From NCBI GenBank assembly GCA_905221605.1, contig CAJNDS010001646.1, positions 706,116 to 770,115 on the forward strand: a DNA stretch of 64,000 bases, read 5' to 3'. The notes beneath the pieces are model-generated. The model worked only from the letters and a program-made list of their open reading frames with translations. It was not told where the DNA came from and made no database searches. Shown in pieces: positions 3,295 through 51,288 of this stretch. The position numbers and the translations under genes were made by a program. How positions within the stretch are numbered: the first letter of the stretch is position 1; the number at the start of each line of letters is the position of its first letter. Origin of the DNA: Symbiodinium natans. Its lineage: Eukaryota > Sar > Dinophyceae > Suessiales > Symbiodiniaceae.

Positions 3295-4901
3295 AAAAAA
3301 AACATTTTTGCTTTTTTGTGTGTCAGGTCTCGTTGCTCCCTCCCTTCCTTCCTTGAATTAAGTTCCTCCCCCTCCTTTCTCCAGCAGGCGCCGCGCAGTT
3401 GATCCAGCCTTGGCTCCTCTGGAAGGCGCGGCGCGTGCACGCCGAGTACTCTCACCCCTCTCACCCCTCAGTATCCTCCTTGTCCGCTCTCCCACATCAC
3501 GCCATCTCACTCTCCCCCTCTCCCCCTCTCCCCCTCTCCCCCTCTCCTCTCCCCTTTCTCCTTCTTTTCGCTCAGCTCTCCTCGCTCTCAGCGCTCAGCT
3601 CTCGCTCTCTCCTCTCTCTTCCCTCTGAATTCCTCCTCTGCTTTGTTATCCCCCTGGAGCTCAGGAGCTGCGGCAGAAGGCGCCGGCTGCAGGCCCCTCT
3701 CTCCGGGATTGGGCTGTTAAGAGGGGGAGGATTGAGGGCATTTGAAGGTCTCAAAAAAATGCGCTCTCTCCTCATCTCTGCTTTCTCTCCTTCTGCGCGC
3801 CCTTCTGTTTTGTTCGCAGCCGCCAGCTTTTCGTGGCCTTTCCCAGGGGCTCTGACTTCTTCCCCTTGTTTTGTATGTCGCATAGAACTCTCGCATGACT
3901 CGCATGGACTCGCATAGACTGTAAGCAGTGTATGTCGCGCCAAGAGCAGAAGGCAGAGTTTTGCTGTGCGCCCTGAGCGTCCTGAACCATGAAACCCAAG
4001 CGCCATTCTGCACCCCCTGCATTGTCTGGCCATCGTTGTTGCCTAGCGATTGTGCTACAGGCACCACGCAGGCGCCAGCAAGCCCGTCGACGAGTTCCAC
4101 AAGGCAAAGACAAAAACACCATGCCCGAAACCTGAAAAAGTTTGGACAAAAAATTCGCCTTTTTTTGACCCATTCCAGACAGACCTGGCGTTGCTCTGCC
4201 CTAGAAGGATGCTCATGTAGAACATCACAGCACGAGCCAAGCCGGGATCAAGATTCTCATCCCGAGGTTTTCTGGCTTTCAGGCCCTTGAGGCCCTTCAG
4301 GCACTTGGGCCTTCAAGAGGCCTTTTTCAGCAACACGTTGCTGGGTTCAAGGCGGAAAGAAAACAAACAGCTAAGAGAGAGAGAAACAAGAAACTTTTGG
4401 GTGGTCTTTGGGGGGCATGCTTGGGAGCACTTCCCGATGCCCACCCCCTCCTCCCCACAAGAAACAAACAAAAGCAGAGAGGCGTTTGCATGCCAGCGGC
4501 CTCGAGGCTGTGGCGCAAGGTGCGCGGCTGTGTCTGTGTTGCTTCGAGAGAAGCCCTCTCAGAGACCTGAACCCACCCAAAATCCCCCCCCAAACCCCGC
4601 AGCTCTCGCAAGGTGCGGCCTTCGCCGCTGCATCCGCGGCCTTGCTGGCAGGGCCCGCGGCTAAGTTTCAAGGGGCCTTTCGGAGAGTGGACGCTCTTTA
4701 TACGAGCCTACGAATCTGAACAGGATGTGAGAGATAGCAATTCATGTTTCAAGCATGTTTCAAGACCAAAGCCCCCCGTAGGACGACCACATTGGACGTG
4801 CGCAGCCGCTTGACGCCGGAGCCCCCGAGTGATTTCTTTCGTAGGGTGGGTGGTGTGCTTAGTTTTGTTCAGATTTCAGGGTTGAAGTTGAAGGCCCTCC
4901 G

Positions 4902-5043
4902 GTATATATATATATATATATGTGTGTAGGTATGTATATATGTATGTATGTAGGTAGGTAGGTATGTATGTATATATATATATATGTGTATGTGTGTGTG
5001 TTTTTTAAATGCATGTTTTTCTCTCTCCCTCTCTCTCTCTCTC
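4902..5043. repeat. TA / TGTA microsatellite plus (CT)n
   Basis: TATATA runs pass into TGTATG and GTAGGTAG tetranucleotides, then TA again, then a TGTG run and a CT run ending near 5043. Confidence 0.9.
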
Positions 5044-6550
5044 GTCTCCACAAGCTGTGTGTGCCGGGTCCTCAATACGAGGGTGCCGACCGTCGCTTTT
5101 GTGTGCTGCTTTCTCGGCTTTGCTGCCCGTAAGCGCACTTGCCTAAAGTCCCCTTCAGCCGCGCGATGCGATTTCTACCGGCTTCGGGCGTTCTCTCTTC
5201 TTCTTGTGTAGCAGGGGTAAGGCAACTGAAGCCGTTTCGGACCGCGGTATGCGCCACCGCCCCCCCCCAAAAGAGGCTTTGGCTTTGTGCTGGCCTCTCG
5301 TGGCTCTCTACATCCTTGGCGCTGGCCGACTTCTCAGGAGGAAGGGCCCCCGTCAGCTCAGGACAGGAGCCCCCGCAGTAAAGGGCAGCTGCTGAAAAAC
5401 CCTTCTCGAGGGCTTTTGCGCGAGGTGGAGATGGACCAGGCGCTCTCAGACACAACAGCAGCCTGCCTTGCCAAGTGCCCAGGCGCGGCGTGTGATGCAC
5501 GGGGAGGTTCAAAATTCCGACCACAGACCGGACCCCTTGTGGGATTTTGAAACGATGAGAGATGCGACTGAGAGCCTCCACCGAAAGCTCGCTTTTGTTT
5601 CGAGGCCGCACGCTTCCCCTCCACTTCTTGCTGCGGGGGCTGGAGGCGCGTGTAGGTGGAGGTTGCAAGCTTCAGGGGGAGGCGTTCACATGTCCAATCT
5701 TCGCAAAACTCGCACCGTGCGGTAGAAGTTATAGAGGGACCCCCCCCCTCCCCCCCAAAAAACCAGAGCAAAAAAGACCCCCCCCAGAAAAGAGGTGGGC
5801 TCCCGGCTCTGGGTCCTCTTGGTCCTGGCGGCGCTGCCAGGAGCTCTGTGCCGAAGAAACTTGCAAAGAGCCGAGCGTGAAAAAGTAGAGACACCTTCAG
5901 TGTGCCCAGAACAAAAAATCAGAGTGAAAGCCTTTGAGAAGGCAAAACGTGGCTCCTTCCCGAATATCTGCAGATGCAAGAGGTGCCGTGGAAGAGCCCT
6001 AGATTTTAGCAAAGCATGTTCTTTATCCATGGGGTCTGGGAAGCACCATAGGTTTCAAGTGCAAACAACATGTTGGTCCTTGAGATGCCCAACATCCTGA
6101 GCCCATATCTCAGGCTCCGGTCAGATCGCCTTCAGATCTCGCGAGGCGCCTTGAGCCCGTGCCTGGGTTGCTGGTCCATGGCTTTCTGCAGTTCCATCAG
6201 TCCGGGTCTCTGAGAGGAGTGCCTTTGATTCCTGTGATGCTCTTCGCGGACTACATCTTCACGGTGCAGGGCTCGCTGGGGGACTATGGGGGGCTGAGAT
6301 TCCAGGTATTGGCGCAGGGTGCGAGCGCATCGGGCCCACGCGGCCCAAGACGCCACAAGCTCTGCCACATCGTTGCACCCAAGGCCTACAGGCCATTAGA
6401 AAGAGGCATGCCTTTAGGCACTTCTCTTAAAGGCCCTAAACCCCGGAGCCGCCCGGAAGCCGCCCGGAAGCGCCTTGGCCTTAAGGCGGCCATCCTCTTC
6501 GGGGGAAGGACCTGCCGGAAGCTGGCGTCTTCCCGACTTGTTTAACGGCC

Positions 6551-6650
6551 TAGCTCTAGGGTTTAGGGTTTAGAGTTTAGGGTTTAGGTCTTTGGGTTTT
6601 GGGGTTTAGGGTTTAGGTTTTAGGGTTTGGGGTTTGGGGTTTGGGGTGTC
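6551..6650 (+). repeat. Interstitial telomere-like repeat (TTTAGGG)n, degenerate
   Basis: Repeated GGGTTTAG and GGGTTTGG heptamers with point changes. Unique sequence lies on both sides, so this is not a chromosome end. Confidence 0.85.
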
Positions 6651-6670
6651 GGGTCCCTGAACCCTTCCAG

Positions 6671-6723
6671 GCTACTCCTGGCACTGCCGGCGATGGCGGC
6701 CAACCCGCTCAAGTGCGCGCCCG
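6671..6723 (+). CDS. Possible small exon
   Basis: The stretch is bounded by a good acceptor (CCTTCCAG|G) and a consensus donor (CCCG|GTGAGT). It contains an in-frame ATG that would read MAANPLKCAP. It could be an upstream exon of the tandem-exon gene or belong to something else. No neighbour fixes the frame. Confidence 0.3.
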
Positions 6724-7133
6724 GTGAGTGTTGTGTCTCGGTGGTTGGAGTGTCATAGCCGATAAATTCCAGCATCTGCTGTGATTTGGACTTCTATTCT
6801 TCTGGGATGCAATTACAGGTTTGGAAGCGAGTTCAGGATGTGTGACTCAGTGTAGCTTTGCCAATGGAGTAAAGATTTAGAGTGCTGTAGCTTCGATTTC
6901 CACGCGCAGTCTGGCGATGCTTCAGCATCGCGAAGCCTTTTGCGGCTTATCAGGACGTCTTTCCCGCCATTTGAGATGTGTGAGGACATTGAGAGCTAAG
7001 GCTTCCCATGCTTTTCTCTTACTCCCCAAACTCGTATACCCCGAAGAGCTCCACGAGTGCTCCACTGACCGTGCTCCTCATCCTTAAATTGCATAATTTC
7101 GGGGCCACAAAGCCCTGGCAGCCAAGTGCGCAC

Positions 7134-10100
7134 ATGGCTTCCGAGGCCTGCACGGTAAGTCACTGTAACGATGAAGTCCTGGCCCATGTTCACATTCAGA
7201 TCCGAGAGTTCGCGCCGAGCACGTCGTACGCGTTGCAGCGCCGAGATTCTGGCCCGCGCGGACTGCTTTGAAACGTGCTCGTGCGAAGGCGAGCGTGCCG
7301 GCGGTGGAGCCCAAGGAGGCACCGGCAGCTCCGGCAGCTTCGCCGGCAGAAGCAGCGCCGGCCGAGGTGCCTCTAGTGAGCGTGTGTGCCCGTTGGTGTA
7401 GCCGTTCCCGCGGCTTCGTCCCTCGACCGCCTGAGACACACTGCAAGCCTCTTTTCCCTGCAAGCTCTGAACTTTTGGACGCTTCCCAAGCCGAACTGAA
7501 ACTCAACCCTTCTGCCGTCAAAGCCGTCTTGGGGGTTTGCTCCCTTGGGGAAGGCGCCTGTAGCAGATGCCGCCGCCGAGCAGAAGGAGCCTCCAGCTGA
7601 GGTGGGTTGCCACATAGTGAAGTGCAGTGAAGATAGTGAAGTGAAGCACCGTGTCCTCTGGACCACATGCACGTTCCGTGCAGAAGTTGCACAAGGCTTA
7701 GGCTTTCGGATGATTTCGGGTGGACAGTTGCAGGATGTTGCAAGATGTTGCAAGTCTCCGCACTCGGAGGCCCCAGCAGCGGGCAAGGGCAAAGCGAAGG
7801 GGCTCAAAGGGCCGGGAAAGGGCCCACCGGTGACTCGCCGGAGCTTTGTGGGTGTGAGAGGGTTCCTTGTTCTTTTTTTGTTGTGTGGTGGTGTCGGGAT
7901 GAGTTTGTCATCTTGTTGTCTACAACTGAGTTTTCGGATGCGCAAGGAGTCGAGCAGATGGGGGCTTCACCCAGCCTCTGAGTCTGAGACAGCTCAGGTG
8001 AAGGGCAAGGGCGCCCCTCCGCCACAGACCGAGCAGAAGGAGGCAGCTTTCAGAGAAGTTTCCATCATGGTGGTCATGGCCTTCGCGGGTGCTGTTAATT
8101 TTGATCATTCTAACACATTCCTTCAGGTCTGTGCCTCTCATGAGAAGAAAAGATTGTTGTGTTGATTTTTTACCATCAGTGACTACCATCAGAACTTTCA
8201 CTTCGGCCCGAAGCCTTGCCCCGCGCCCTTAATCACATACCGACGTGCCTGCGGCCGACGGGCCGAGCGCAAAGAAGAAAGCTGCCTCGCACCGTGCACA
8301 GCTCTTTTTCCATTTTGTTGTTCCTGCTGCGCCACCCTCAGAAGTAGGGAGGTGCTGAAGCAACCTCGAGCTGGACGTGGTCATACGGGATTGCATCTTA
8401 CTGGCATTGTATGCCCGTGCACTGCTTTGAAACGTGCTCGTGCGAAGGCGAGCGTGCCGGCGGTGGAGCCCAAGGAGGCACCGGCAGCTCCGGCAGCTTC
8501 GCCGGCAGAAGCAGCGCCGGCCGAGGTGCCTCTAGTGAGCGTGTGTGCCCGTTGGTGTAGCCGTTCCCGCGGCTTCGTCCCTCGACCGCCTGAGACACAC
8601 ACTGCAAGCCTCTTTTCCCTGCAAGCTCTGAAATTTTGGACGCTTCCCAAGCCCCGCTGAAACTCAACCCTTCTGCCGTCAAAGCCGTCTTGGGGGTTTG
8701 CTCCCTTGGGGAAGGCGCCTGTAGCAGATGCCGCCGCCGAGCAGAAGGAGCCTCCAGCTGAGGTGGGTTGCCACATAGTGAAGTGCAGTGAAGATAGTGA
8801 AGTGAAGCACCGTGTCCTCTGGACCACATGCACGTTCCGTGCAGAAGTTGCACAAGGCTTAGGATTTCGGATGATTTCGGGTGGACAGTTGCAGGATGTT
8901 GCAAGATGTTGCAAGTCTCCGCACTCGGAGGCCCCAGCAGCGAGCAAGGGCAAAGCGAAGGGGCCCAAAGGGCCGGGAAAGGGCCCACCGGTGACTCGCC
9001 GGAGCTTTGTGGGTGTGAGAGGTTCATTGTTCTTTTTTTGTTGTGTGGTGGTGTCGGGATGAGTTTGTCATCTTGTTCTACAACTGGGTTTTCGGATGCG
9101 CAAGGAGTCGAGCAGATGCGGCTTTGCCCAGTTTATCGAAAGCCTGTGAGTCTGAGACAGCTCAGGCGAAGGGGAAGGGCGCCCCTCCGCCGCAGACAGC
9201 CGACGAGCCGAGCACAAAGCAGAAAGCTGCTGCTTCGCTGATCCAAGCTGCGAAAGATGGCAGCCTCGAGAAGTCGTTGCAGGACTTCCAGCAGAGGGCT
9301 TCTGTGAGTGAGGCAGGGCCTGGCAAAAGGGTGTGATACGGGACGGGACTTTTGCTGGCGTGTGAATTCGAGATTTCGCAGCGAGCACGTCGTATGTGTT
9401 GCAGCACCGAGATTCCTGCCCCACGCAATGCTTTGAGACGTGCTCGTGCGCAGGCGAGCGTGCCCGCAACGGAGCCGAAGGAGGCACCGGCAGCTCCGGC
9501 AGCTTCGCCGGCAGAAGCAGCGCCGGCCGAGGTGCCTCTAGTGAGCGTGTGTGCCCGTTGGTGTAGCCGTTCCCGCGGCTTCGTCCCTCGACCGCCTGAG
9601 ACACACTGCAAGCCTCTTTTCCCTGCAAGCTCTGAACTTCTGGACGCTTCCCGAGCCCCGCTGAAACTCAACCCTTCTGCTGTCAAAACTGTCTTGGGGC
9701 TTTGCTTGGGAAGGCGCCTGTGGCAGATGCCGCCGCCGAGCAGAAGGAGCCTCCGGCTGAGGTGGGATTCCACGTTGTGAAAGTGCAGTGAAGTGACAGC
9801 ACCGTGTCCTCTGGCCCAACTGCAATTCTCGTGCAGAAGTTTGCACAAGGCTTAGGATTTCGGATGCTTTCGGGTGGACAGTTGCAGGATGTTGCAAGAT
9901 GTTGCAAGTCTCAGCACCGCACTCGGAGGCCCCAGCAGCGAGCAAGGGCAAAGCGAAGGGGCCCAAAGGGCCGGGAAAGGGCCCACCGGTGACTCGCCGG
10001 AGCTTTGTGGGTGTGAGAGGGTTCCTTGTTCTTTTTTTGTTGTGTGGTGGTGTCGGGAAGAGTTTGTCATCTTGTTGTCTACAACTGGGTTTTCGGATGC

Positions 10101-13100
10101 GCAAGGAGTCGAGCAGATGCGGCTTTGCCCGGTTTATCGAAAGCCTGTGAGTCTGGGACAGCTCAGGCGAAGGGGAAGGGCGCCCCTCCGCCGCAGACAG
10201 CCGACGAGCCGAGCACAAAGCAGAAAGCTGCTGCTTCGCTGATCCAAGCTGCGAAAGATGGCAGCCTCGAGAAGTCGTTGCAGGACTTCCAGCAGAGGGC
10301 TTCTGTGAGTGAGGCAGGGCCTGGCAAAAGGGTGTGATGATACGGGACGGGACTTTTGCTGGCGTGTGAACTTCGAGATTTCGCAGCGAGCACGTCGTAT
10401 GTGTTGCGGCACCGAGATTCCTGCCCCACGCAATGCTTTGAAACGTGCTCGTGCGCAGGCGAGCGTGCCCGCAACGGAGCCGAAGGAGGCACCGGCAGCT
10501 CCGGCAGCTTCGCCGGCAGAAGCAGCGCCGGCCGAGGTGCCTCTAGTGGGCGTGTGTGCCCGTTGGTGTAGACGTTCCCGCGGCTTCGTCCCTCGACGGC
10601 CTGAAGCACGCTGCAAGCCTCTATGCCCTACAAGCCCTTGAACTTCTGGACGCTTCCCGAGCCCCGCTGAAACTCAACCCTTCTGCTGTCAAAACTGTCT
10701 TGGGGCTTTGCTCCCTTGGGAAGGCGCCTGTGGCAGATGCCGCCGCCGAGCAGAAGGAGCCTCCGGCTGAGGTGGGATTCCACGTTGTGAAAGTGCAGTG
10801 AAGTGACAGCACCGTGTCCTCTGGCCCAACTGCAATTCTCGTGCAGAAGTTTGCGCAAGGCTTAGGATTTCGGATGCTTTCGGGTGGACAGTTGCAGGAT
10901 GTTGCAAGATGTTGCAAGATGTTGCAAGTCTCAGCATCGCACTCGGAGGCCCCAGCAGCGAGCAAGGGCAAAGCGAAGGGGCCCAAAGGGCCGGGAAAGG
11001 GCCCACCGGTGACTCGCCGGAGCTTTGTGGGTGTGAGAGGGTTCCTTGTTCTTTTTTTGTTGTGTGGTGGTGTCGGGATGAGTTTGTCATCTTGTTGTCT
11101 ACAACTGGGTTTTCGGATGCGCAAGGAGTCGAGCAGATGCGGCTTTGCCAGTTTATCGAAAGCCTGTGAGTCTGAGACAGCTCAGGCGAAGGGGAAGGGC
11201 GCCCCTCCGCCGCAGACAGCCGACGAGCCGAGCACAAAGCAGAAAGCTGCTGCTTCGCTGATCCAAGCTGCGAAAGATGGCAGCCTCGAGAAGTCGTTGC
11301 AGGACTTCCAGCAGAGGGCTTCTGTGAGTGAGGCAGGGCCTGGCAAAAGGGTGTGATGATACGGGACGGGACTTTTGCTGGCGTGTGAACTTCGAGATTT
11401 CGCAGCGAGCACGTCGTATGTGTTGCAGCACCGAGATTCCTGCCCCACGCAATGCTTTGAAACGTGCTCGTGCGCAGGCGAGCGTGCCCGCAACGGAGCC
11501 GAAGGAGGCACCGGCAGCTCCGGCAGCTTCGCCGGCAGAAGCAGCGCCGGCCGAGGTGCCTCTAGTGGGCGTGTGTGCCCGTTGGTGTAGACGTTCCCGC
11601 GGCTTCGTCCCTCGACGGCCTGAAGCACGCTGCAAGCCTCTATGCCCTACAAGCCCTTGAACTTCTGGACGCTTCCCGAGCCCCGCTGAAACTCAACCCT
11701 TCTGCTGTCAAAACTGTCTTGGGGCTTTGCTCCCTTGGGAAGGCGCCTGTGGCAGATGCCGCCGCCGAGCAGAAGGAGCCTCCGGCTGAGGTGGGATTCC
11801 ACGTTGTGAAAGTGCAGTGAAGTGACAGCACCGTGTCCTCTGGCCCAACTGCAATTCTCGTGCAGAAGTTTGCACAAGGCTTAGGATTTCGGATGCTTTC
11901 GGGTGGACAGTTGCAGGATGTTGCAAGATGTTGCAAGTCTCAGCACCGCACTCGGAGGCCCCAGCAGCGAGCAAGGGCAAAGCGAAGGGGCCCAAAGGGC
12001 CGGGAAAGGGCCCACCGGTGACTCGCCGGAGCTTTGTGGGTGTGAGAGGGTTCCTTGTTCTTTTTTTGTTGTGTGGTGGTGTCGGGATGAGTTTGTCATC
12101 TTGTTGTCTACAACTGGGTTTTCGGATGCGCAAGGAGTCGAGCAGATGCGGCTTTGCCAGTTTATCGAAAGCCTGTGAGTCTGAGACAGCTCAGGCGAAG
12201 GGGAAGGGCGCCCCTCCGCCGCAGACAGCCGACGAGCCGAGCACAAAGCAGAAAGCTGCTGCTTCGCTGATCCAAGCTGCGAAAGATGGCAGCCTCGAGA
12301 AGTCGTTGCAGGACTTCCAGCAGAGGGCTTCTGTGAGTGAGGCAGGGCCTGGCAAAAGGGTGTGATGATACGGGACGGGACTTTTGCTGGCGTGTGAACT
12401 TCGAGATTTCGCAGCGAGCACGTCGTATGTGTTGCGCACCGAGATTCCTGCCCCACGCAATGCTTTGAAACGTGCTCGTGCGCAGGCGAGCGTGCCCGCA
12501 ACGGAGCCGAAGGAGGCACCGGCAGCTCCGGCAGCTTCGCCGGCAGAAGCAGCGCCGGCCGAGGTGCCTCTAGTGGGCGTGTGTGCCCGTTGGTGTAGAC
12601 GTTCCCGCGGCTTCGTCCCTCGACGGCCTGAAGCACGCTGCAAGCCTCTATGCCCTACAAGCCCTTGAACTTCTGGACGCTTCCCGAGCCCCGCTGAAAC
12701 TCAACCCTTCTGCTGTCAAAACTGTCTTGGGGCTTTGCTCCCTTGGGAAGGCGCCTGTGGCAGATGCCGCCGCCGAGCAGAAGGAGCCTCCGGCTGAGGT
12801 GGGATTCCACGTTGTGAAAGTGCAGTGAAGTGACAGCACCGTGTCCTCTGGCCCAACTGCAATTCTCGTGCAGAAGTTTGCGCAAGGCTTAGGATTTCGG
12901 ATGCTTTCGGGTGGACAGTTGCAGGATGTTGCAAGATGTTGCAAGATGTTGCAAGTCTCAGCATCGCACTCGGAGGCCCCAGCAGCGAGCAAGGGCAAAG
13001 CGAAGGGGCCCAAAGGGCCGGGAAAGGGCCCACCGGTGACTCGCCGGAGCTTTGTGGGTGTGAGAGGGTTCCTTGTTCTTTTTTTGTTGTGTGGTGGTGT

Positions 13101-16100
13101 CGGGATGAGTTTGTCATCTTGTTGTCTACAACTGGGTTTTCGGATGCGCAAGGAGTCGAGCAGATGCGGCTTTGCCAGTTTATCGAAAGCCTGTGAGTCT
13201 GAGACAGCTCAGGCGAAGGGGAAGGGCGCCCCTCCGCCGCAGACAGCCGACGAGCCGAGCACAAAGCAGAAAGCTGCTGCTTCGCTGATCCAAGCTGCGA
13301 AAGATGGCAGCCTCGAGAAGTCGTTGCAGGACTTCCAGCAGAGGGCTTCTGTGAGTGAGGCAGGGCCTGGCAAAAGGGTGTGATGATACGGGACGGGACT
13401 TTTGCTGGCGTGTGAACTTCGAGATTTCGCAGCGAGCACGTCGTATGTGTTGCGGCACCGAGATTCCTGCCCCACGCAATGCTTTGAAACGTGCTCGTGC
13501 GCAGGCGAGCGTGCCCGCAACGGAGCCGAAGGAGGCACCGGCAGCTCCGGCAGCTTCGCCGGCAGAAGCAGCGCCGGCCGAGGTGCCTCTAGTGGGCGTG
13601 TGTGCCCGTTGGTGTAGACGTTCCCGCGGCTTCGTCCCTCGACGGCCTGAAGCACGCTGCAAGCCTCTATGCCCTACAAGCCCTTGAACTTCTGGACGCT
13701 TCCCGAGCCCCGCTGAAACTCAACCCTTCTGCTGTCAAAACCGTCTTGGGGCTTTGCTCCCTTGGGAAGGCGCCTGTGGCAGATGCCGCCGCCGAGCAGA
13801 AGGAGCCTCCGGCTGAGGTGGGATTCTACGTTGTGAAAGTGCAGTGAAGTGACAGCACCGTGTCCTCTGGCCCAACTGCAATTCTCGTGCAGAAGTTTGC
13901 ACAAGGCTTAGGATTTCGGATGCTTTCGGGTGGACAGTTGCAGGATGTTGCAAGATGTTGCAAGTCTCAGCACCGCACTCGGAGGCCCCAGCAGCGAGCA
14001 AGGGCAAAGCGAAGGGGCCCAAAGGGCCGGGAAAGGGCCCACCGGTGACTCGCCGGAGCTTTGTGGGTGTGAGAGGGTTCCTTGTTCTTTTTTTGTTGTG
14101 TGGTGGTGTCGGGATGAGTTTGTCATCTTGTTGTCTACAACTGGGTTTTCGGATGCGCAAGGAGTCGAGCAGATGCGGCTTTGCCAGTTTATCGAAAGCC
14201 TGTGAGTCTGAGACAGCTCAGGCGAAGGGGAAGGGCGCCCCTCCGCCGCAGACAGCCGACGAGCCGAGCACAAAGCAGAAAGCTGCTGCTTCGCTGATCC
14301 AAGCTGCGAAAGATGGCAGCCTCGAGAAGTCGTTGCAGGACTTCCAGCAGAGGGCTTCTGTGAGTGAGGCAGGGCCTGGCAAAAGGGTGTGATACGGGAC
14401 GGGACTTTTGCTGGCGTGTGAATTCGAGATTTCGCAGCGAGCACGTCGTATGTGTTGCAGCACCGAGATTCCTGCCCCACGCAATGCTTTGAGACGTGCT
14501 CGTGCGCAGGCGAGCGTGCCCGCAACGGAGCCGAAGGAGGCACCGGCAGCTCCGGCAGCTTCGCCGGCAGAAGCAGCGCCGGCCGAGGTGCCTCTAGTGA
14601 GCGTGTGTGCCCGTTGGTGTAGCCGTTCCCGCGGCTTCGTCCCTCGACCGCCTGAGACACACTGCAAGCCTCTTTTCCCTGCAAGCTCTGAACTTTTGGA
14701 CGCTTCCCAAGCCGAACTGAAACTCAACCCTTCTGCCGTCAAAGCCGTCTTGGGGGTTTGCTCCCTTGGGGAAGGCGCCTGTGGCAGATGCCGCCGCCGA
14801 GCAGAAGGAGCCTCCAGCTGAGGTGGGTTGCCACATAGTGAAGTGCAGTGAAGATAGTGAAGTGAAGCACCGTGTCCTCTGGCCCAACTGCAATTCTCGT
14901 GCAGAACTTGCACAAGGCTTAGGATTTCGGATGCTTTCGGGTGGACAGTTGCAGGATGTTGCAAGATGTTGCAAGTCTCAGCACTCGGAGGCCCCAGCAG
15001 CGAGCAAGGGCAAAGCGAAGGGGCCCAAAGGGCCGGGAAAGGGCCCACCGGTGACTCGCCGGAGCTTTGTGGGTGTGAGAGGGTTCCTTGTTCTTTTTTT
15101 GTTGTGTGGTGGTGTCGGGATGAGTTTGTCATCTTGTTGTCTACAACTGGGTTTTCGGATGCGCAAGGAGTCGAGCAGATGCGGCTTTGCCCGGTTTATC
15201 GAAAGCCTGTGAGTCTGGGACAGCTCAGGCGAAGGGGAAGGGCGCCCCTCCGCCGCAGACAGCCGACGAGCCGAGCACAAAGCAGAAAGCTGCTGCTTCG
15301 CTGATCCAAGCTGCGAAAGATGGCAGCCTCGAGAAGTCGTTGCAGGACTTCCAGCAGAGGGCTTCTGTGAGTGAGGCAGGGCCTGGCAAAAGGGTGTGAT
15401 GATACGGGACGGGACTTTTGCTGGCGTGTGAACTTCGAGATTTCGCAGCGAGCACGTCGTATGTGTTGCAGCACCGAGATTCCTGCCCCACGCAATGCTT
15501 TGAAACGTGCTCGTGCGCAGGCGAGCGTGCCCGCAACGGAGCCGAAGGAGGCACCGGCAGCTCCGGCAGCTTCGCCGGCAGAAGCAGCGCCGGCCGAGGT
15601 GCCTCTAGTGGGCGTGTGTGCCCGTTGGTGTAGACGTTCCCGCGGCTTCGTCCCTCGACGGCCTGAAGCACGCTGCAAGCCTCTATGCCCTACAAGCCCT
15701 TGAACTTCTGGACGCTTCCCGAGCCCCGCTGAAACTCAACCCTTCTGCTGTCAAAACTGTCTTGGGGCTTTGCTCCCTTGGGAAGGCGCCTGTGGCAGAT
15801 GCCGCCGCCGAGCAGAAGGAGCCTCCGGCTGAGGTGGGATTCCACGTTGTGAAAGTGCAGTGAAGTGACAGCACCGTGTCCTCTGGCCCAACTGCAATTC
15901 TCGTGCAGAAGTTTGCGCAAGGCTTAGGATTTCGGATGCTTTCGGGTGGACAGTTGCAGGATGTTGCAAGATGTTGCAAGTCTCAGCACCGCACTCGGAG
16001 GCCCCAGCAGCGAGCAAGGGCAAAGCGAAGGGGCCCAAAGGGCCGGGAAAGGGCCCACCGGTGACTCGCCGGAGCTTTGTGGGTGTGAGAGGGTTCCTTG

Positions 16101-17196
16101 TTCTTTTTTTGTTGTGTGGTGGTGTCGGGAAGAGTTTGTCATCTTGTTGTCTACAACTGGGTTTTCGGATGCGCAAGGAGTCGAGCAGATGCGGCTTTGC
16201 CCGGTTTATCGAAAGCCTGTGAGTCTGGGACAGCTCAGGCGAAGGGGAAGGGCGCCCCTCCGCCGCAGACAGCCGACGAGCCGAGCACAAAGCAGAAAGC
16301 TGCTGCTTCGCTGATCCAAGCTGCGAAAGATGGCAGCCTCGAGAAGTCGTTGCAGGACTTCCAGCAGAGGGCTTCTGTGAGTGAGGCAGGGCCTGGCAAA
16401 AGGGTGTGATGATACGGGACGGGACTTTTGCTGGCGTGTGAACTTCGAGATTTCGCAGCGAGCACGTCGTATGTGTTGCAGCACCGAGATTCCTGCCCCA
16501 CGCAATGCTTTGAAACGTGCTCGTGCGCAGGCGAGCGTGCCCGCAACGGAGCCGAAGGAGGCACCGGCAGCTCCGGCAGCTTCGCCGGCAGAAGCAGCGC
16601 CGGCCGAGGTGCCTGCCAGGGTCCACAAACTTATCACACGCCCGATCGTAAGTGAGACGCAGGATGTTATCGTCTACTCGCTGCGTTTCCCTGGAACTTC
16701 TTTAAACCCCAAACCCCAAACCCCAAAACCCTAAAGCCTAAAAAACTTCATGTTAAGCCCCCACGGCTTCTTCTGGAGGCGCCTTTGGCCAAGGGCAAGG
16801 CCAAGGGCCCCAAGGGTCCGGGCAAGGGCCCAGCTGCTTGCTCAGAGGGCTCTGAACATGACGGTTTTGGGTTTGGGGTTTGGGGTTTCGGGGTTTTCGG
16901 GTTTTGGGGGGTTTTGGGGTTTCGGGGTTTGGGGTTCGGGGGTCGGGTGTTTGAAGGGGTTTCATGTCCTTCTCCCCGTGTTGCTTTTTGGGGAGTGCCT
17001 CGCACACCACCTGCTTTTTTCAAGCCCAGAAGCCACTCCAAGGATGCCAAAGTGAATGTCCTGAAGCTCCCGCATACTCTGGCCTGAGAGGGCGCGTCTC
17101 TACCCTGAACTTCCATGGGGCCCCTCGAATGCCAAAGCAGCTGAAGCCAAGGGGAAGGGCGTGGCCTTTTCAGCGGAGGCGAAGGAGGCCTCTTGT
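7134..17196 (+). CDS. Tandem-exon gene for a Lys/Ala/Pro-rich repetitive protein
   Basis: ATG at 7134 reads MASEACT and stops at a GTAAGT donor (7155) in phase 0. Then come repeated exons, each starting after AG and in phase 0. Exon a (78 nt): 7289-7366, 8448-8525, 9454-9531, 10459-10536, 11478-11555, 12486-12563, 13505-13582, 14510-14587, 15521-15598, 16531-16608. Exon b (48 nt) starts: 7554, 8715, 9714, 10724, 11743, 12751, 13770, 14775, 15786. Exon c (60 nt) starts: 7770, 8931, 9929, 10949, 11958, 12976, 13985, 14991, 16001. Exon d (138 nt) starts: 9166, 10167, 11186, 12195, 13213, 14222, 15229, 16239. Exon a is Ala/Pro/Glu-rich (KEAPAAPAASPAEAAPAE), b reads APVADAAAEQKEPPAE, c is basic (KGKAKGPKGPGKGP), and d ends in an amphipathic helix (SLIQAAKDGSLEKSLQDFQQ). 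Donors are GT. One full unit adds 108 residues; total length would be near 1,000. Function unknown; a structural or nucleic-acid-binding role is only a guess from composition. Confidence 0.7.
7200..16614 (+). repeat. Tandem array of ~1.01-kb gene units (about 9.4 copies)
   Basis: Exon-a starts are spaced 1159, 1006, 1005, 1019, 1008, 1019, 1005, 1011 and 1010 bp. Introns are as conserved as exons between units 3 and 9. Small differences separate the units: the 10-mer ATGTTGCAAG before exon c is present twice or three times, GAATTCGAG alternates with GAACTTCGAG, and CGGGATGAG alternates with CGGGAAGAG. Unit 1 is the most diverged. The array stops abruptly after exon a of unit 10, at GTGCCT|GCCAGG (16614). 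Confidence 0.95.
7998..8320 (+). pseudogene. Interrupted exon d of unit 1
   Basis: The exon-d start is recognisable at 7998 (VKGKGAPPPQ). The homologous continuation (GPSAKKKAAS) appears only at about 8254, after roughly 220 bp of unrelated sequence. That sequence includes a TTGATCATTCTAACACATTCC stretch. Either the exon has been split by an insertion and partly decayed, or a new intron has been gained here. Confidence 0.5.
16684..16950. repeat. Telomere-like patches at the array's 3' border
   Basis: CCCCAAA and CCCTAAA copies at about 16705-16738, then GGGTTTTGG/GGGTTTGG copies at 16862-16950 in the opposite orientation. They flank the diverged exon c at 16779. Confidence 0.8.
16779..16832 (+). 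CDS. Diverged exon c beyond the array
   Basis: After TTCTGGAG the sequence reads APLAKGKAKGPKGPGKGP in phase 0, then meets a GC donor (CCA|GCTGCT). It matches exon c of the array at 14 or more of 18 residues, while the flanking intron is unlike the array. A second, weaker relic of exon d (AKGKGVAFSAEAKEAS) lies at about 17146-17193. These are probably older copies that form the 3' end of the same gene. Confidence 0.55.
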
Positions 17197-17682
17197 GTGA
17201 GAGCTGGGAATTTAGATGTGCCCGCTTAGAGAGGGGCATTCGGAGTGTCACGTCTTGGGCAGGAGCCTGCGACGGTGACGGAAGAGGCGGACTGGCAACG
17301 GGCGACGGGCTCACGTTATGTAGGACTTAGGACTTCCATAGGACGGTGGCGCCCTCTATACCCTCGATTCAAGTCGGCAACATTCCCACCCGAAATTCTT
17401 AAGGCCTAAACCCGCCTGGGCCAACGACCGACGTCATCCCAAAACCTGTTTTAGTTCCCCGCAGTCGGGTCGTGGTCGCAAGAACGTAAACCCAAACGCT
17501 CTCAAACCTTGCGAAACACGTGAAGCCTCAAAGCCACACCATTCGCGCAAAGACAGGCAAGCCCCGCAGGCGCCGCCAGCAGCCACGCGCCGCATAAGGC
17601 CAGGGGCATCCCCCGGGGAAAGGCTTCGGAAAGCACGCGTTCGGGCGCCACTCGCAGTTAGTTAGTTATGTAGTGTTTTCAG
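17197..17682. other. Spacer or intron, nothing recognised
   Basis: Mixed-composition sequence with no open frame supported by splice sites. It contains GTTAGTTAGTTATG near 17660. Confidence 0.5.
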
Positions 17683-20520
17683 GGCAAGCCCTTGTTTGAG
17701 CGGGACTTTTGTGGTAGGGGTCTCATGAATTGGGTTCTAGTTGGGGGGCTCATCGGGGGTTTGGGATGGCCCCATTCTAAACCACCATCTGTATCATATG
17801 TTGATATTCTTTCAAGCGGTGGATGTACACTTTATGCACATTTTGTTAAATGGAGAAAAAGCTTTCTTTGTCTCCTCGAAGATGCAACAAAACACCTCTT
17901 TAAGCATCTTGACAAAGGAACATCAGGCTTGGATTAAGTTTCAGCTCTCTTGCATTCCGTAAAGAATGTGTTGGTGCGTAGGAAAGAGCTGTTTGTGTTC
18001 CGAGTCTGGGAAAACTCGGGTTCTGCGAGCCGGAGGTCGCTGTTGTCGCCGCGGATCCCACCCTTGGTGTGGCCGAGTCTTGTCGCAGAGTAAGTGGATG
18101 TCGGGATGTTCGTGGGGTTTTAGGGCTCCTATGGTTTCTAGGCTTAGGGTTTAGGGTTTAGGGGTTCTAGGGTTTTGGTCTTTGTTTTTGTTGGGGGGGC
18201 TCTTGGGGAGCTGTCTAAAGGGTTTGCGGGCTTGGTGGGCTTTGGGTGAAGACCTCTTCTGAGGTTGGACAAAGGGCCTTCGGAGATCCCAAAACCCCAA
18301 AACCCCAAAACCCCAAAACCCCAAAACCCCAAAACCCCAAAACCCCAAAACCCCAAAACCCCAAAACCCCCAGGGCTTGAAGGGGGCATAGAGAAAGGGT
18401 TGGGATGTTCCCCGTTATACTAACAGTCCTGTAATCGGGATTATGCTACTCCCTCTGAGAAGCCCTGTTAAGGACTGTTCGCATAAGGGGGGACATCCCA
18501 AAGAAGGGGCCCTTTCATGGCAGTCTTGAACTCCCAGCAGAAGCTTCCTCCCCCCCCGCTTCTCCCCCGAAACGAGTTTCGAGGTGGACATCTCTTTGGG
18601 CCACGCCGCCGGCCACCTGCTGAAAAGAGGGCCCGTCTTTGGCTACAAGTTCCAGCCGCGTGCTTTTGGCCGCAGTTGGCGGGGGGTGTTGGGGGTCGAC
18701 CTGAAGAACCTTAAGCCCCTGGTTCTTTTTCTTTAGGTTAGAGAAAGTGATGCCAAAGGACCTCCATTTTTAGGAGCTGCGTAGCAATAGCCGCTGCAAA
18801 GATGAGGTACGCTTTTTTTGGGGTTTGTTCGGCTCTTCAAGTTGTGCTCGGAAAAGGAGCAGCCCTCCTAAAGTCCCTACAGTGCATCCAAGAACCCCGA
18901 ACCTCAATGAGAATATCTTCATGCGCTCTGCTGTGGTCACGGTCCGTTATGGATTTGGGGCTGTGGGTTTCTTGGGGTTCATGTTTTCTGGCTCGTGATC
19001 TGCGGGGAGGGGGTGGCGCCGAACATGGCAGGGTGGTGCTTCCTCACCAACACCCAGCTCATCGTCTACAAAGACGTGACCTGGCCTGCTCTGGGATGTT
19101 GGTTTAGGGTTTAGGGTTCAAGTAGTATGGGCTTGAGTTTGCGTTTTGCTATTGGGCGCATGGTTGCAGGCCTCTCCCAAGATTTGCTAAGCGCCCACCC
19201 TTCCTGGCTCTTCCCCCGGTTCTTCCCCCACACCCCTAAACCCTGAACCCCCAAAACCCTAGACCCCTAAACCCTAAACCCTAATTAATCCCAGAACCCT
19301 GAACCCTAAACCCTTATAAACCCTACACCCTAGAGCCTAAACTCAACTTAAATGTCTGAACCCTTTGTTTTGAGGAGAGCTTCACGCAGCGGCAAAGCGT
19401 GGAGCGGATCACTGCAGAGGCTCCTTGAATCAACGAGACGGGCGGCAGGTCGAAAGGGGGGCTCCTTGAAGGTTTCAAGGTCCCAAGGGGTTTAGGGTTT
19501 AGCGGTTGAGGGTTCAGCGTTTCGAGTTTAGGGTTTAGAGAGGCTTTGGGGGGGGGTTTCCTTGTTGAGTAGGTGCCCTTAAGTTGTGCTGCACAGGATT
19601 TTCAGCGCCCTTCGTCGGCGCGTCATGGCCGAACACCGAGGCGCGGGCCTTCAAGTTCTCGCGCCACGATGCGCCGGGCGAGGCGCGGAGAGGGCAGTCT
19701 GGCATGCCAGGGAGCTTCCCCCAAAAAAGTTCGGGGGGGCATCCTCTCTTTGGGAGGTTCCCCGCAAAAGCATGCGGAATGCCTCTGAGGGCTTAGGGAT
19801 GATTATGAAGGGAAAGCCCGATGGCTTGCGCCGAGTCTCTGCAGGCGGTCAAGCACATGGCCGAGAAGCCACATGGCGGCCCGGCAGCAAGTCGCAGGAG
19901 CAACGTGAGAACCGAGAGTTGACTTTACAAGGGTTAGGCCTCTCGAGGCTCTGGGATTGTCAGCCGCAATCGCATATAAAAACCAAGCGCCTCTCTCGAG
20001 GTGGTCTCGCTGATTGTATGGCAGCCGTTCAGTGAAGGGAGGGCAGGCATTTCTGCCGCGATCGTCAGAAGAAGGAAAAGAGATCGTCAACTGTACTCCA
20101 AATGGGCATTTCCCAACATAGGGGTACCCCTAGTACACCTCAGATACCATAATCCTCATTACCGGATGCCCCCAAAAAGGTAGCCATATTTTCCGAAATC
20201 CTTTTTTTTTTGGGGGGGGGCCCAAGGTTTGTGTTTCCCCTTTTGGAGAAGCGGGAGCTGAGGCTTCGTGCTGGACGCAGACCCCAAAGCCGGGAAATCT
20301 CGGAAGCTCTCCTACTTCGACGCCGCTCAGCTCTCCATTCTCTTCTCCCGCATTATCGCGGAAGGTCAGCTGGTTCTTACTGGGGAAGGAGGGAGTTAGG
20401 GGGGGCCAAAATGTGCCCTTTAAGGGATTATCTAGGGTACCTCATTCCCTCATTCCCTCATTGCCTACTAAGAACCAGCCAGAGAAGTCAAGCTGGGAAG
20501 AGCCAACTTTATTCGTAGAG
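17683..20520 (+). CDS. Unrecognised gene, at least six exons
   Basis: Exons read by phase: 17683-17713 (GKPLFERDFC, GT donor), about 18541-18672 (VDISLGHAAGHLLKRGPVFG), 19032-19094 (WCFLTNTQLIVYKDVTWP, GA donor), 19597-19677 (PFVGASWPNTEARAFKF, GC donor), 20263-20364 (KLSYFDAAQLSILFSRI, GT donor) and 20479-20520 (REVKLGRANFIRR, GT donor). The last four join in phase 1 without a break. The second exon is placed less firmly. Codon third positions are strongly GC. I do not recognise the family; the Asp/Lys-rich stretch ADPKAGKSRK leads into an amphipathic helix. Neither a start nor a stop codon is fixed. The second exon sits about 40 bp from the terminal-inverted-repeat element at 18400, so that element lies in an intron. 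Confidence 0.5.
18284..18373. repeat. (CCCCAAAA)n array
   Basis: About ten perfect 8-bp CCCCAAAA units, a telomere sequence type known from some ciliates rather than the CCCTAAA type seen elsewhere in this window. A short TTTAGGG patch lies just upstream at 18139-18170. Confidence 0.95.
18400..18501. mobile_element. Terminal-inverted-repeat element, copy A
   Basis: Starts TTGGGATGTTCCCC and ends GGGGGGACATCCCAA, with inner arms CTAACAGTCCT and AGGACTGTT. The flanks AGAAAGGG (18392-18399) and AGAAGGGG (18502-18509) agree at 7 of 8 bases, which fits an 8-bp target duplication. It has no coding capacity. Confidence 0.8.
19229..19345 (-). repeat. Telomere-like repeat (CCCTAAA)n, degenerate
   Basis: CCCTAAACCCTGAACCC-type units with CCCTATAAA and CCCTACA variants. 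Short TTTAGGG patches of opposite orientation lie at 19103-19122 and 19489-19545. Confidence 0.85.
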
Positions 20521-24999: not shown

Positions 25000-26275
25000 G
25001 CAGCACCGAATGAAGACGGGACAACTGTGCTAGCACAAAAGGCCTTGCTTTCAGATGCCGTATTGAAGCCGAAAGGGCCCTCCCCCCCCAAAGCTCCACT
25101 TCCCTCAGCTCAGAGGGCCGGGCTTGGCTGCTGCCAGCGCCCGACTGGGCCCTCCCTGGATGTTTCCCAGTCCCTCGGAGACATGGGCTGCGGCTTAAAG
25201 TTACAGGGTTTAGGGTTTAGGGTTTTGGGGTTTAGGGTTTGGGGTTTAGGGTTTTTGTAACGGGAGGAAGTCAGGCACGGGGGCTTCGGGTTTTAGGGTT
25301 TTGAGGGGTTGGGTTCAAGTTTTGAGAGGCATGACTCGTGGCTTCACCCGAGAGATTTCTCTAGAAGTTGGGTTTCAACACCACGTTTCAGCTCACGCTG
25401 TTTTGCAGGGGTCCTTGCGAAGATGAGCCAAGGTTTTGGAAGATGCCATCTTATGACCCAGGACACCCGGCAGAGTTTACCGAGTCCACCATGGACAGCA
25501 TTCCTGTTCGGCCCTTTGCACGAAAACAAGGGACGCCGGCTTCTGCTTTGGCAGGTATCAGCTCGGGGATATGGGAGACTAGAGTCGTTCTTATCTTAGG
25601 CACTGCTGCACGGATTTGGGTAAACAGGCTCGTCTGTTTGCAACTTTCTCTCTCGCCTGCCAGTCAGAGTATTGCTGCCACCTTTTCCTGAAGGCTTGTG
25701 CGTAGGTCGGCGTTGTCAGGTTAGTTCTCGAGCTAGTGGGGTTCCCGCTTTCAGCCTTGAACCTGCCCCAGGACGCGCGGTCCTTAGTCGAGGAGAGCCT
25801 CGACTCGGCGGTGAGGAGGGCCATCTTCGACACGGTTGCTGCTGCACGCGCGCAGGGCTTCCATGTGCAGATCGACCGCCATGACTTGTTCCATGGCCAC
25901 CTCTTTTCTCGCAAGAGTGGGGAGGTGGGCATCCTCCTCCATGCATGCGAGTACCCTACCCAGAATGAGGACTTTCCCATCAACCTCGGCTTCTGCCAAG
26001 CAGATTCCCAGGTCCAGTACGAGGATGCTGTGATGCAGCATCGGAACATCTTGCTCCTCTTCTCCAAGGTTCTCCGTGCCTTTGTCCTCGACGCGGAGTC
26101 TGACATGGTCAAGGCCCTGATTCCCGAGTATGCCCGGAGGCCGATGTACACACTCTACGAGGACAGCCTCGGCGAGCCTCTGGCAGACGTGTACTTCGTC
26201 CCCAGCGAAGAGAAGCTGGGTTGGGTGAGCCGCTTGTCGAAGGGCTCCAAGAAGAGCTCGAAGATACGGCTATGA
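24469..26275 (+). CDS. Uncharacterised protein, complete four-exon model (269 aa)
   Basis: Exons 24469-24534, 24759-24835, 25409-25554 and 25755-26275 add to 810 nt, exactly 270 codons including TGA. Phases agree at all three junctions (0, 2, 1). Donors are GT (24535), GC (24836) and GT (25555). The ATG follows GCCGCC. The N-terminus MLLCRLRPAALGVRALERP is Arg-rich without acidic residues until Glu17, which resembles a mitochondrial presequence (inference). The large last exon encodes a compact domain with HVQIDRHDLFHGHLFSRKSG and HACEYPTQNEDFPINLGF, then a basic tail (SKGSKKSSKIRL). I do not recognise the family. The second exon's donor is the least certain element. Confidence 0.7.
24963..25001. 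repeat. (TA)n microsatellite
   Basis: TATATA run interrupted once by TG; it lies in intron 2 of the 269-aa protein gene. Confidence 0.9.
25205..25255 (+). repeat. Telomere-like repeat (TTTAGGG)n
   Basis: Five to six GGGTTTAG/GGGTTTTG units within an intron. Confidence 0.9.
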
Positions 26276-44228: not shown

Positions 44229-44650
44229 GTACCAGATCCGAAAGGTGCAACACAGAATGTCTTGAGAAGGGGCACGAAAACATGCACCCCAAACAATTCC
44301 CGAGAAGAACGTCCTCAAATCTCCAATCTCAAGTCCCCCCCAAATCCGGGACAAGAATAGCCTCCACCCCCCAAGATCAGAGGCCAGACGAACTCCGTGT
44401 TGCATCCCGGCGGCGCCCGAGGCCGTCGGCAAATCTACTACAGATTTTTGATGTATATGTTTTTTGTTGCAGTTATGTATATGTTATCAAACTTATCTTA
44501 TGTATGCATGGGTGCGTAGATATTATGTATCATATGTTATCTGTTCGTATACACACCCTATGGGGTGAAAGCGTTTTGGGGTGGATTTCGGCGCGAACTA
44601 ATTAAGCTCAACACAGCCCCAAAGGCCGATCCTTGCCAGAGGCCCAACTA

Positions 44651-44788
44651 CACCCTACACCCTACACCCTACACCCTACACCCTACACCCTACACCCTAC
44701 ACCCTAAACCCTAAACCCTAAACCCTAAACCCTAAACCCTAAACCCTAAGCCCTAAACCCTAAACCCTAAACCCTAAACCCTAAACCC
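44651..44788 (-). repeat. Telomere-like array: (CCCTACA)n then (CCCTAAA)n
   Basis: About eight CCCTACA units change sharply to about eleven CCCTAAA units with one CCCTAAG. This shows separate expansions of two heptamer variants side by side. Confidence 0.95.
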
Positions 44789-45235: not shown

Positions 45236-46300
45236 GGTTTAGGGCCAGTTTAGGGTTTAGGGTTTAGGGTTTAGGGTTTGGGGTTTAGGGTTTAGGGTCT
45301 TCTAATAGGAAATGTTGGGTTCATGGGGAATTGCAAGTGTGGTCTAGCTCCTTTATGCGCTTATTTTGCTTTATGCTATAAAGACCCATTTGTACTATGA
45401 TTGGTGTGCGTGTGTGATTCCATGTTTGCGCCTATATATACGAAATGTTCAGTAGAAAAAAGGGTAAGTGAAGTAGATATGTCTGAATAGAGTAATTAAT
45501 AGAGTATTATCTAAGTACGAAATTTCTACGAGGGAGGGTTACCAACATCATGTTTCGGACATAATTTTGCTAGTGCATTCAATTTGAGGTTTATATTGCG
45601 AATGAAATCTCAGAAGATAATAGAAATACATATATACGTCGCACACAGTTCTCTCGTCGTAACTCGCTTTTTTCACATCTTTATATTCGTTTATTGTTTT
45701 CTTGTCAGTGACTCATGGGCTTTTAGAGAGTTATTGTGGCGTTTCGTGCGCATTACTTGTTGTCTTCTTCCCACACATCCTCTGTGGCAATAGGTAGTTG
45801 AGACGTGCAGGAAGCGCTCTCTTTCTTCGCTGATGCAAAAGCACTATACTCCTTCGAAATGATTGACCCCAAGCCCTGAACGCTAATAGCCCCAAAGCCC
45901 CAAATACACCCCAAACCCTAAACCCTAAACCCCAAATACTAAACCCTAAACCTTGAACCCTAAACCCTAAACCCTAAACCCTAAACCCTAAACCCTAAAC
46001 CCTAAACCCTAAACCCTAACCTCTAAACCTCTAAACCTCTAAACCCTAAACCCTAAACCCCAAACCCCAAGCTCTAAGCCCTAAAACCCAAGCCACCTCA
46101 ACCCGCAAGAGCAAGAGGGAGGGGAGACAGCGAGCATCCCTCGGCCAGGCCTCGCTTCGCTGGTCACCTGGGCCAGTCCCGGGGCCTCTTGGCACGAAGA
46201 GGTTTTAGGGTTTCAGGGATTTGGGGTTTTAGGTGTTAGGGTTCAGGGTTTCGGGTTTGTAGGGTTTAGGGTTTGGGGTTTTAAGGGGTTTCGGGGTTTT
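45236..46300. repeat. Telomere-like arrays around an AT-rich island
   Basis: TTTAGGG units at 45236-45300; an AT-rich stretch with no convincing exon at about 45310-45790; CCCTAAA and CCTCTAAA units at 45888-46085; and TTTAGGG-type units at 46204-46300. Confidence 0.85.
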
Positions 46301-49502: not shown

Positions 49503-51288
49503 GAAATGCCAGGTGTGTTCATCTCAAATTGTACATAAGTCCATACCTACATTCCCGTTTGCACGGCTCATCGTCGAAAGCTAGGGAGGTGTCGCATCCT
49601 CTCGGTGGCCTAGGAATGATGCAGGGGCAGCTGTCGTGGCGCACCTTGTTACCAACTGGCTGGTGAAGCATGTGAACACCGGGGCGGCTTCTGAAGAGTT
49701 GCAACGCTGGTAGCGCTCCGACTGCAAGCACAAGGCCCTTGAAGAGTTCTGCCTCATTCTGCCGTCCTTGTTGCGTAGAACGAGGGTGTTGGCTTTTGGA
49801 AGGTCTGAAGGACCCTGCCTGCCAACAATCTTGAACCGGCAAAGTGTTACATTCCTGCCAGACGGAACTCCGGACCCAAGACGGGCGGTGGTGGCCAAGA
49901 CAGCACGCGCATGAGCGAAGTCTGGCGCCTCTTCGCCGACGAGGACATGGCATGTCTGCAACCTTGCCAATCGCTCTCTTTTTTGCGCATGCGGGCCGGG
50001 GGTCTCCGCATCCCGAAGTCTGCCCAGAACAAGCATCCTCAATTCCAACCCCCCGTGCTGGAGACATCGCCTCTGGACTCTTGAAGCTGCACATAAGGCG
50101 CTTAACTCGGCCACAGCGAGTCGCAAAAAAGAGTTCGCCGCGGGAGGTTGGGATCTCGTTTGGGTCAGCCTTGCAGTGGCTGAGGGCCGCTTTCGGACAT
50201 CTTAGGAGACAACCCTCAAAGTGGCAAGCCATCCCAAACCATCCCCCATCATAAGCATTCCCCTTCTAAGCTCATGCTGCAGCCAGTCACGGGCTTCGGG
50301 GCACAGCTCTGGCAACAATGAGAGCAGCTCTCTCTGTCTCTGCTTTGCTTCGGATATTTACGCTGCTCGAATTCGGGCTGAACCTCCAACTGACAACAGA
50401 CTCCCTCATCAGACTCTCCTCAGACTCTCATCAGACTCTCCAGCCACGCTGTTTGCTTAAGAACCCCCCGCAAAATAGTAATCCCTAAATTACCCTTGAA
50501 GGACGAACATTCGTCATTTCTTGTGGGGCTTCTTGAAGCAGCCGGGAGGCACCCGGAGTCTGGGCGACGCCACGCCGACGAAGGCGGGGAATTTCGGGGA
50601 CGTGGCTTTGGGTTCAGGGTTTAGGGTTTAGGGTTTAGGGTTTAGGGTTTAGGGTTTAGGGTTTAGGGTTTAGGGTTTAGGGTTTAGGGTTTAGGGTTTA
50701 GGGTTTAGGGTTTAGGGTTTAGGGTTTAGGGCCAGCGGCTTGCAAGAACCATCCCGTGAACCCCTTCATGAACCCCACTTTGGCTGCACCGGTTCAGGAG
50801 TATCACCTGAGATTCTTCCGCATTGCCCAGCACCCAGTGGCCCAGCGGACTTGTTTGTGTTTCTGTTGCAGCTTCCCACGAACCGAAGTCTGACTTGCCA
50901 CTGGAGAAGCACGCGCCCCATTGCAGTATGGCTCAAGGGATGCTGAAGGACAAAGGTTCCTGAAGTCAGAGGTCCATGGAGGCCTCTCAGTCGCAATAGA
51001 GGGGAAGGGAAACAAAAAGGAAGAGACCTCCCTAAGAACAGCGGGGAGATGAACAAAACATGATACTCGGGAGCCCTTTCTAACTTAATAAACAGGTAGG
51101 GGAGAGCGGGGATCTTTCCATTGAGTTGTAGACGTATGCATGTGTGTGTGTGTGTGTTTGAAAGAAAGAAAGGTGCATTAAATTGAATAATCTTCCCTGC
51201 GGCGCAACCCCCCCTCCCTTAAGTAGGACCCTTCTCTTGGGGTCCTTGTCTGTTCTTGTTTGCGCCTTCCTGCGCCTTTTCGGCCTGA
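49503..51288. other. Spacer with open frames of unclear status
   Basis: A + frame open from about 49810 to 50084 reads MSEVWRLFADEDMACLQPCQ and could be a real exon. A long opposite-strand frame covers the same bases. A (CAGACTCTC)n-like patch lies at 50398-50445, and a (GT)n run at 51141-51157. Neither strand can be chosen from the sequence alone. Confidence 0.4.
50611..50730 (+). repeat. Perfect (TTTAGGG)n array, about 17 units
   Basis: The longest uninterrupted canonical array in the window, with no variant unit inside it. Unique sequence on both sides. Confidence 0.98.

Follow-up and report, generated by a model that had tools for sequence, protein, structure and literature searches.

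A tandemly duplicated four-exon block in Symbiodinium natans, read as one lengthened gene

Does a tandem array of near-identical ~1-kb units in the genome of the dinoflagellate Symbiodinium natans represent one long gene that has grown by the addition of complete units, or a row of small genes standing one behind the other? The array lies in the final 64 kb of contig C1646 (CAJNDS010001646.1), a stretch that we call the window and of which positions 6,000-17,900 were read directly; a preliminary description, made from the letters alone, had proposed the former. Our analysis leads us, with somewhat more confidence than doubt, to a single + strand dinoflagellate gene lengthened by tandem duplication of the ~1-kb block. 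Under the scheme that we propose, this gene would have lengthened by duplication of a block in which four phase-0 exons go with four introns, its pre-mRNA would be spliced in the predicted order a-b-c-d-a-b-c-d and so on, each extra block would add 108 residues with the frame unchanged, and copy number would shift through unequal exchange between blocks.

Architecture of the array and its growth by blocks

Patterns anchored on the borders given in the preliminary description (AG before, GT after) recovered, as assembled, ten copies of the exon-like segment a (78 nt), nine of b (48 nt), nine of c (60 nt) and eight of d (138 nt), and the same copy numbers were obtained with independent inner anchors. 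All 36 segments found by the pattern search are open in frame, in phase 0 and without change of length. Given the predicted borders, exons of 78, 48, 60 and 138 nt are phase-symmetrical and a+b+c+d make up a 108-codon phase-0 period, so that these counts bear out the proposal of ten a copies and nine each of b and c, in phase 0 and with a 108-residue period. Since the patterns were anchored on AG and GT, what they establish is the recurrence of the borders, not their status as splice sites. The unit period is 998-1,020 nt (1,159-1,161 nt across unit 1), and 34 of the 35 gaps between segments link neighbours in unit order and measure 150-189 nt. The 35th, from c1 to a2, spans 618 nt and holds a d-like first part with no clean remainder of d. 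Because unit 1 thus lacks a clean d, the complete four-exon units number eight; the claim of an array of four-exon modules stands for these eight units in tandem and fails for the first. At 8000-8300, the first part of d in unit 1 takes an alternative, QTEQKEAAFRE-like form, found also in a relative of the array's units on contig C2223 but absent from units 2-9, in which d, judging from this alternative, may be a fusion.

The units duplicate or exchange as blocks. Units 4+5 and 6+7 form a two-unit duplicate (99.6% identity over 2,028 columns), the block 12442-14465 being 99.6% identical to 10415-12441; all four combinations of states occur in 105 of the 496 pairs of 32 informative sites among units 2-9; and unit 8 shares with unit 2 most informative sites of the a-b and b-c gaps. 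Mosaic units of this kind are as expected from segment exchange; growth of the array is most simply explained by unequal exchange of entire units. The two-unit duplicate and the mosaic units, together with the evidence, set out below, that c and d are coding, support the earlier proposal that a phase-0 multi-exon module was duplicated as a unit.

Coding signal in the exon-like segments

A DNA search of the whole genome (759,417,921 bases in 2,543 contigs) with unit 4 gave at least 18 matches. Among the matches listed, ten lie in the array, two are pieces, 74-75% identical, of one partial copy on C2223, two are d-like stretches (on C2027 and C453), and four are short matches of 31-42 nt (two on C513, one each on C1782 and C2446). 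The C2223 copy (locus L037, C2223:817450-827449, local positions 4726-5524) is a single diverged partial unit of 72-75% identity that comprises the c-d gap, d, the d-a gap, a, the a-b gap and b; as it retains the d-to-a junction, at least two units probably predate its split. Two other loci (L035 and L036, local positions ~4,950-5,050) carry the second half of d by itself; their flanks look alike by eye, and at L035 a stop follows shortly after that half.

Exon c has a diverged copy, c′, downstream of the tenth exon a (at 16779), and when the two are compared, the first, second and third codon positions differ 2, 1 and 11 times, with nine synonymous against two non-synonymous codons and one in-frame 3-nt gap (proportion of synonymous differences, pS, 0.71; of non-synonymous differences, pN, 0.072). 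For the second half of d, the differences at the three codon positions were 5, 5 and 11 against C2027 (pS 0.55, pN 0.14) and 2, 4 and 11 against C453 (pS 0.53, pN 0.13), and over 54 nt of the closer relative C2223 pS was 0.23 and pN 0.06. This excess of third-position and synonymous changes, seen when each is set against diverged relatives, points to c and d as coding segments, and at least one lineage appears to have kept both frames under constraint at the protein level. The sole outside comparison for a and b is that with C2223 (mismatches per codon position of 4, 1 and 6 for a and of 2, 1 and 2 for b, with indels of -15 and +3), and the evidence that they are coding, weaker than that for c and d, is suggestive only.

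Inside the array, variable columns number 7 of 324 in exons against 58 of 707 in introns among units 2-9 (P 9e-5), and 1 of 324 against 37 of 705 among units 3-9 (P 1e-5), unit 1 having been dropped from both counts for its diverged d and unit 2 also from the second. Exons contribute seven of the 65 variable columns among units 2-9 and none of the 42 gap columns; all 15 distinct gap runs fall outside exons, and 14 of them are not multiples of three. Five of the nine variable exon sites are synonymous when a-c are counted in units 1-9 and d in units 2-9, and these exons contain no indels at all. We have dropped the simple exon-versus-intron count as main evidence because the variable sites cluster by block. 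The exons of unit 4 have a guanine-plus-cytosine content of 62-76%, its introns one of 51-60%.

One gene weighed against other readings

Several observations weigh against reading the array as a single coding gene. (i) A four-exon phase-0 chain bounded by AG/G and GT is present in 31 of 200 dinucleotide-shuffled units, with at least 324 nt coding in 30 of the 200, and the real unit holds 900 four-exon phase-0 chains, the longest of 393 nt. The repetition itself is certainly beyond chance; the exon chain alone is weak evidence, and since such chains are common in shuffles, we treat the exon borders as predictions and base the coding claim on the comparative tests above. (ii) When C2027 and C453 are compared directly with each other, no constraint is seen (pS 0.05, pN 0.04). 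(iii) The C2223 relative was expected to display exon conservation, which was not clearly found: its identity is 82, 76, 78 and 58% in the c-d, d-a, a-b and b-c introns and 71, 83 and 90% in exons d, a and b, and with a 29-nt insertion in its copy of d as well, there is no clear exon excess. (iv) Circular shifts of the exon mask equal the real mask on substitutions plus gaps in 7 of 1,030 cases (units 2-9) and 11 of 1,028 (units 3-9); within the array, the contrast of exons with introns is thus near the 1% level, and block history confounds it. (v) The d-a gap, an intron if the array is one gene, is nearly invariant (2 substitutions in 154 columns). (vi) Neither end of the gene is firmly placed. 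(vii) An in-frame TGA recurs as the 11th codon past d in all eight d-a gaps, and an in-frame ATG lies 60 nt 5′ of exon a in seven of the eight. The main argument of the preliminary description for a single transcript had been the lack of any start or stop codon repeated in each unit, and this recurring TGA and ATG refute it.

The recurring TGA and ATG make a tandem array of eight 138-aa genes a live rival, which we nonetheless consider unlikely. Each of these ~8 small genes, with three introns, would start at the ATG situated 60 nt 5′ of exon a (MCC[SG]TEIPAPRNAL[KR]RARAQ) and end at the TGA after d (VSEAGPGKRV, then the stop), with spliced-leader addition between units. Besides the codons themselves, a plausible AG acceptor (TTTCGCAG) 12 nt 5′ of the ATG and the high conservation of the d-a gap fit such genes, as does the unidirectional tandem arrangement that excerpts of two papers describe as common in dinoflagellates (PMC7245778, PMC2488372). 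The tandem-gene model leaves a stop-to-start spacer of 57-61 nt. In the tandem genes of another species, A. carterae (Amphidinium), the 3′ untranslated region (UTR) measures 42-143 nt, the gap 85-982 nt and the 5′ UTR 51-369 nt, according to part of the published account (PMC2488372), and because the spacer falls far below these lengths combined, we prefer one gene. Further points tell against separate genes. In the d-a gap of unit 5 the recurrent ATG has been shifted from its frame by a 1-nt deletion; in unit 1, ACG occupies the site of the later units' ATG, and the unit's own ATG, at 7134, is followed by the donor GTAAGT; and no in-frame Met was found upstream of a1 or a2 within their open frames. 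The 60-nt stretch that would encode the N-terminus carries two substitutions and one gap over its 60 columns, whereas one of the 324 exon columns varies (Fisher P 0.013), a comparison that on substitutions alone gives P 0.065 and draws on weak, clustered data. No relic of the spliced leader was found within the window at up to three mismatches; the 22-nt dinoflagellate leader has 152 exact copies in the genome (76 per strand), and a reversed control has none, which marks the genome as that of a dinoflagellate. The known dinoflagellate arrays (PCP, actin and the single-exon genes of Polarella) resemble the present one in being tandem, unidirectional and made of near-identical units, but in them each gene stands apart, with a start, a stop and spacers of its own; as far as the same excerpts go, tandem genes are generally poorer in introns, and here there is no room for a spacer of the published size (PMC7245778, PMC2488372). 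Fusion of the units into one transcript is accordingly the reading that we favour, as far as the letters allow.

That the array is a decaying or unexpressed duplicate, in which formerly coding exons would have been multiplied into a 1-kb satellite-like repeat that yields no product, seems to us distinctly improbable. A C2223 relative with no clear excess of exon conservation, a first unit broken at d, a degenerate 3′ end and a window rich in tandem repeats would all suit such decay; against it stand the 36 of 36 exon copies that are open and constant in length, the strong synonymous bias of c versus c′ and the exon changes within the array, synonymous at five of nine sites and free of indels. 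We give very little credence to a dual reading, in which removal of the d-a gap would yield a polymer of ~1,000 residues, while its retention, with the TGA after d and a spliced leader placed upstream of the recurrent ATG, would yield a 138-residue monomer, cis- versus trans-splicing serving as the switch. A single-exon protein per unit, reading through c, the c-d gap and d, is hardly credible: its stop-to-stop frames of 179-184 aa are open in units 4-7, where the c-d gap is 177 nt, but in units 2, 3, 8 and 9 a gap of 175 or 178 nt breaks the frame, and since gap length varies in this way the model is contradicted in half of the units with a clean d (four of eight) and was rejected.

For the single gene, the candidate ends are given with the units in Table 1. 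At the 5′ end, the 134 nt that follow the candidate first exon finish with CGAAG directly before the GCG of exon a1; by eye, the 3′ part of this stretch looks similar to the d-a gap. At the 3′ end, the tblastn listing is mostly chance, and we draw evidence from the c′ match only.

Table 1. Coordinates of the repeat units and of the candidate terminal exons in the window
Feature	Position	Strand	Segments and remarks
Candidate first coding exon	7134..7154	+	ATGGCTTCCGAGGCCTGCACG (MASEACT), then donor GTAAGT, phase 0; predicted from the sequence
Unit 1, diverged	7289..8447	+	a 7289-7366, b 7554-7601, c 7770-7829, then 618 nt to a2
Unit 2	8448..9453	+	a 8448-8525, b 8715-8762, c 8931-8990, d 9166-9303, d-a gap 9304-9453
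Unit 3	9454..10458	+	a 9454-9531, b 9714-9761, c 9929-9988, d 10167-10304, d-a gap 10305-10458
Unit 4	10459..11477	+	a 10459-10536, b 10724-10771, c 10949-11008, d 11186-11323, d-a gap 11324-11477
Unit 5	11478..12485	+	a 11478-11555, b 11743-11790, c 11958-12017, d 12195-12332, d-a gap 12333-12485
Unit 6	12486..13504	+	a 12486-12563, b 12751-12798, c 12976-13035, d 13213-13350, d-a gap 13351-13504
Unit 7	13505..14509	+	a 13505-13582, b 13770-13817, c 13985-14044, d 14222-14359, d-a gap 14360-14509
Unit 8	14510..15520	+	a 14510-14587, b 14775-14822, c 14991-15050, d 15229-15366, d-a gap 15367-15520
Unit 9	15521..16530	+	a 15521-15598, b 15786-15833, c 16001-16060, d 16239-16376, d-a gap 16377-16530
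Tenth exon a	16531..16608	+	frame open beyond the usual donor (VPARVHKLITRPI) until GTAAGT at 16648
c′, diverged copy of exon c	16779..16835	+	APLAKGKAKGPKGPGKGPA; tblastn 1e-7; pS 0.71, pN 0.072 against c
Tentative last exon	17122..17229	+	NAKAAEAKGKGVAFSAEAKEAS..., frame closes at TAG; tblastn E 2.3, chance level; proposed from sequence

Predicted product, surroundings and known systems

Counted from the ATG at 7134 through the tenth exon a, with unit 1 taken as a, b and c only, the product of a single gene would be at least 959 residues long. The 108-residue unit contains 30 Ala, 18 Pro and 13 Lys, and net charge alternates along it (-3 for a and -3 for b, that is -6 over the 42 aa of a+b, then +5 for c and +2 for d). 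An acidic Ala/Pro/Glu part (a+b) alternating with a basic Lys/Gly/Pro part (c) and a module, d, with two short helices predicted in its second half would be a long flexible polyampholyte. The helices come from an AlphaFold2 model of exon d alone, run on the single 46-residue sequence, which places them at residues 17-31 and 33-45 with a mean predicted local distance difference test score (pLDDT) of 84.5 (block means of 92, 92 and 89 from residue 21) and a predicted template modelling score (pTM) of 0.42. A Foldseek search of the PDB with this 46-residue single-sequence model gave no matches. Against Pfam, a two-unit protein gave nothing above the cut-off (sub-threshold scores of 17.8 and 13.5 bits against 25.7 and 27); a PDB sequence search returned three sequences at E up to 1, the best of 0.67, which we rejected; and 42 stretches fitting the pattern in viral contigs yielded no confirmed case. 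In these searches of Pfam, of PDB sequences and folds and of viral contigs, the earlier statement that the repeat could not be assigned to a family holds. Our best guess at a putative role is that of a multivalent scaffold or spacer protein with a repeated helical module.

The remainder of the window contains further repeats. A satellite with an 86-bp unit occupies 59739-64000 and reaches the end of the contig, so that the assembly probably stops inside it. Interstitial telomere-like blocks of TTTAGGG/CCCTAAA or variants are scattered through the window (for example at 44648-44788, 45908-46085, 50610-50731 and 52771-52882), and two such blocks adjoin the array (6557-6647 and 16863-16953). Two long protein-like + strand frames (25706-26275 and 51289-52176) have no Pfam match, and among 14 open reading frames of the window searched against Pfam, selected from 130 listed, none scored above the cut-off.

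Elsewhere, the super-repeats of nebulin, the PEVK region of titin and kringle IV of apolipoprotein(a) are phase-compatible multi-exon blocks in tandem that lengthen their proteins in frame; these have recognised folds or motifs and a function, whereas the dinoflagellate unit has no recognised family. Spider flagelliform silk (Flag) repeats one exon-intron pair, in contrast to the four short exons and four introns of the dinoflagellate unit, and no sequence relation is claimed. Akin to the present array if it is one gene, those for Flag and Argiope MaSp2 are repetitive protein genes with multiple near-identical introns per gene, as part of a published account describes them (PMC3522626). In light of the silk, nebulin, titin and apolipoprotein(a) precedents the growth mechanism is not new: the process is known already, and it is the sequence of the unit that has no assigned family. 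A general literature search for multi-exon repeat genes returned no papers, and we do not claim that the repeat is unpublished.

The array also carries a warning, in that automated annotation could take it for eight genes. If it is one gene, it would be a clean case of a protein lengthened by the copying of a complete four-exon block, in a lineage that copies whole genes, and one in which the history of exchange would still be legible in the introns.

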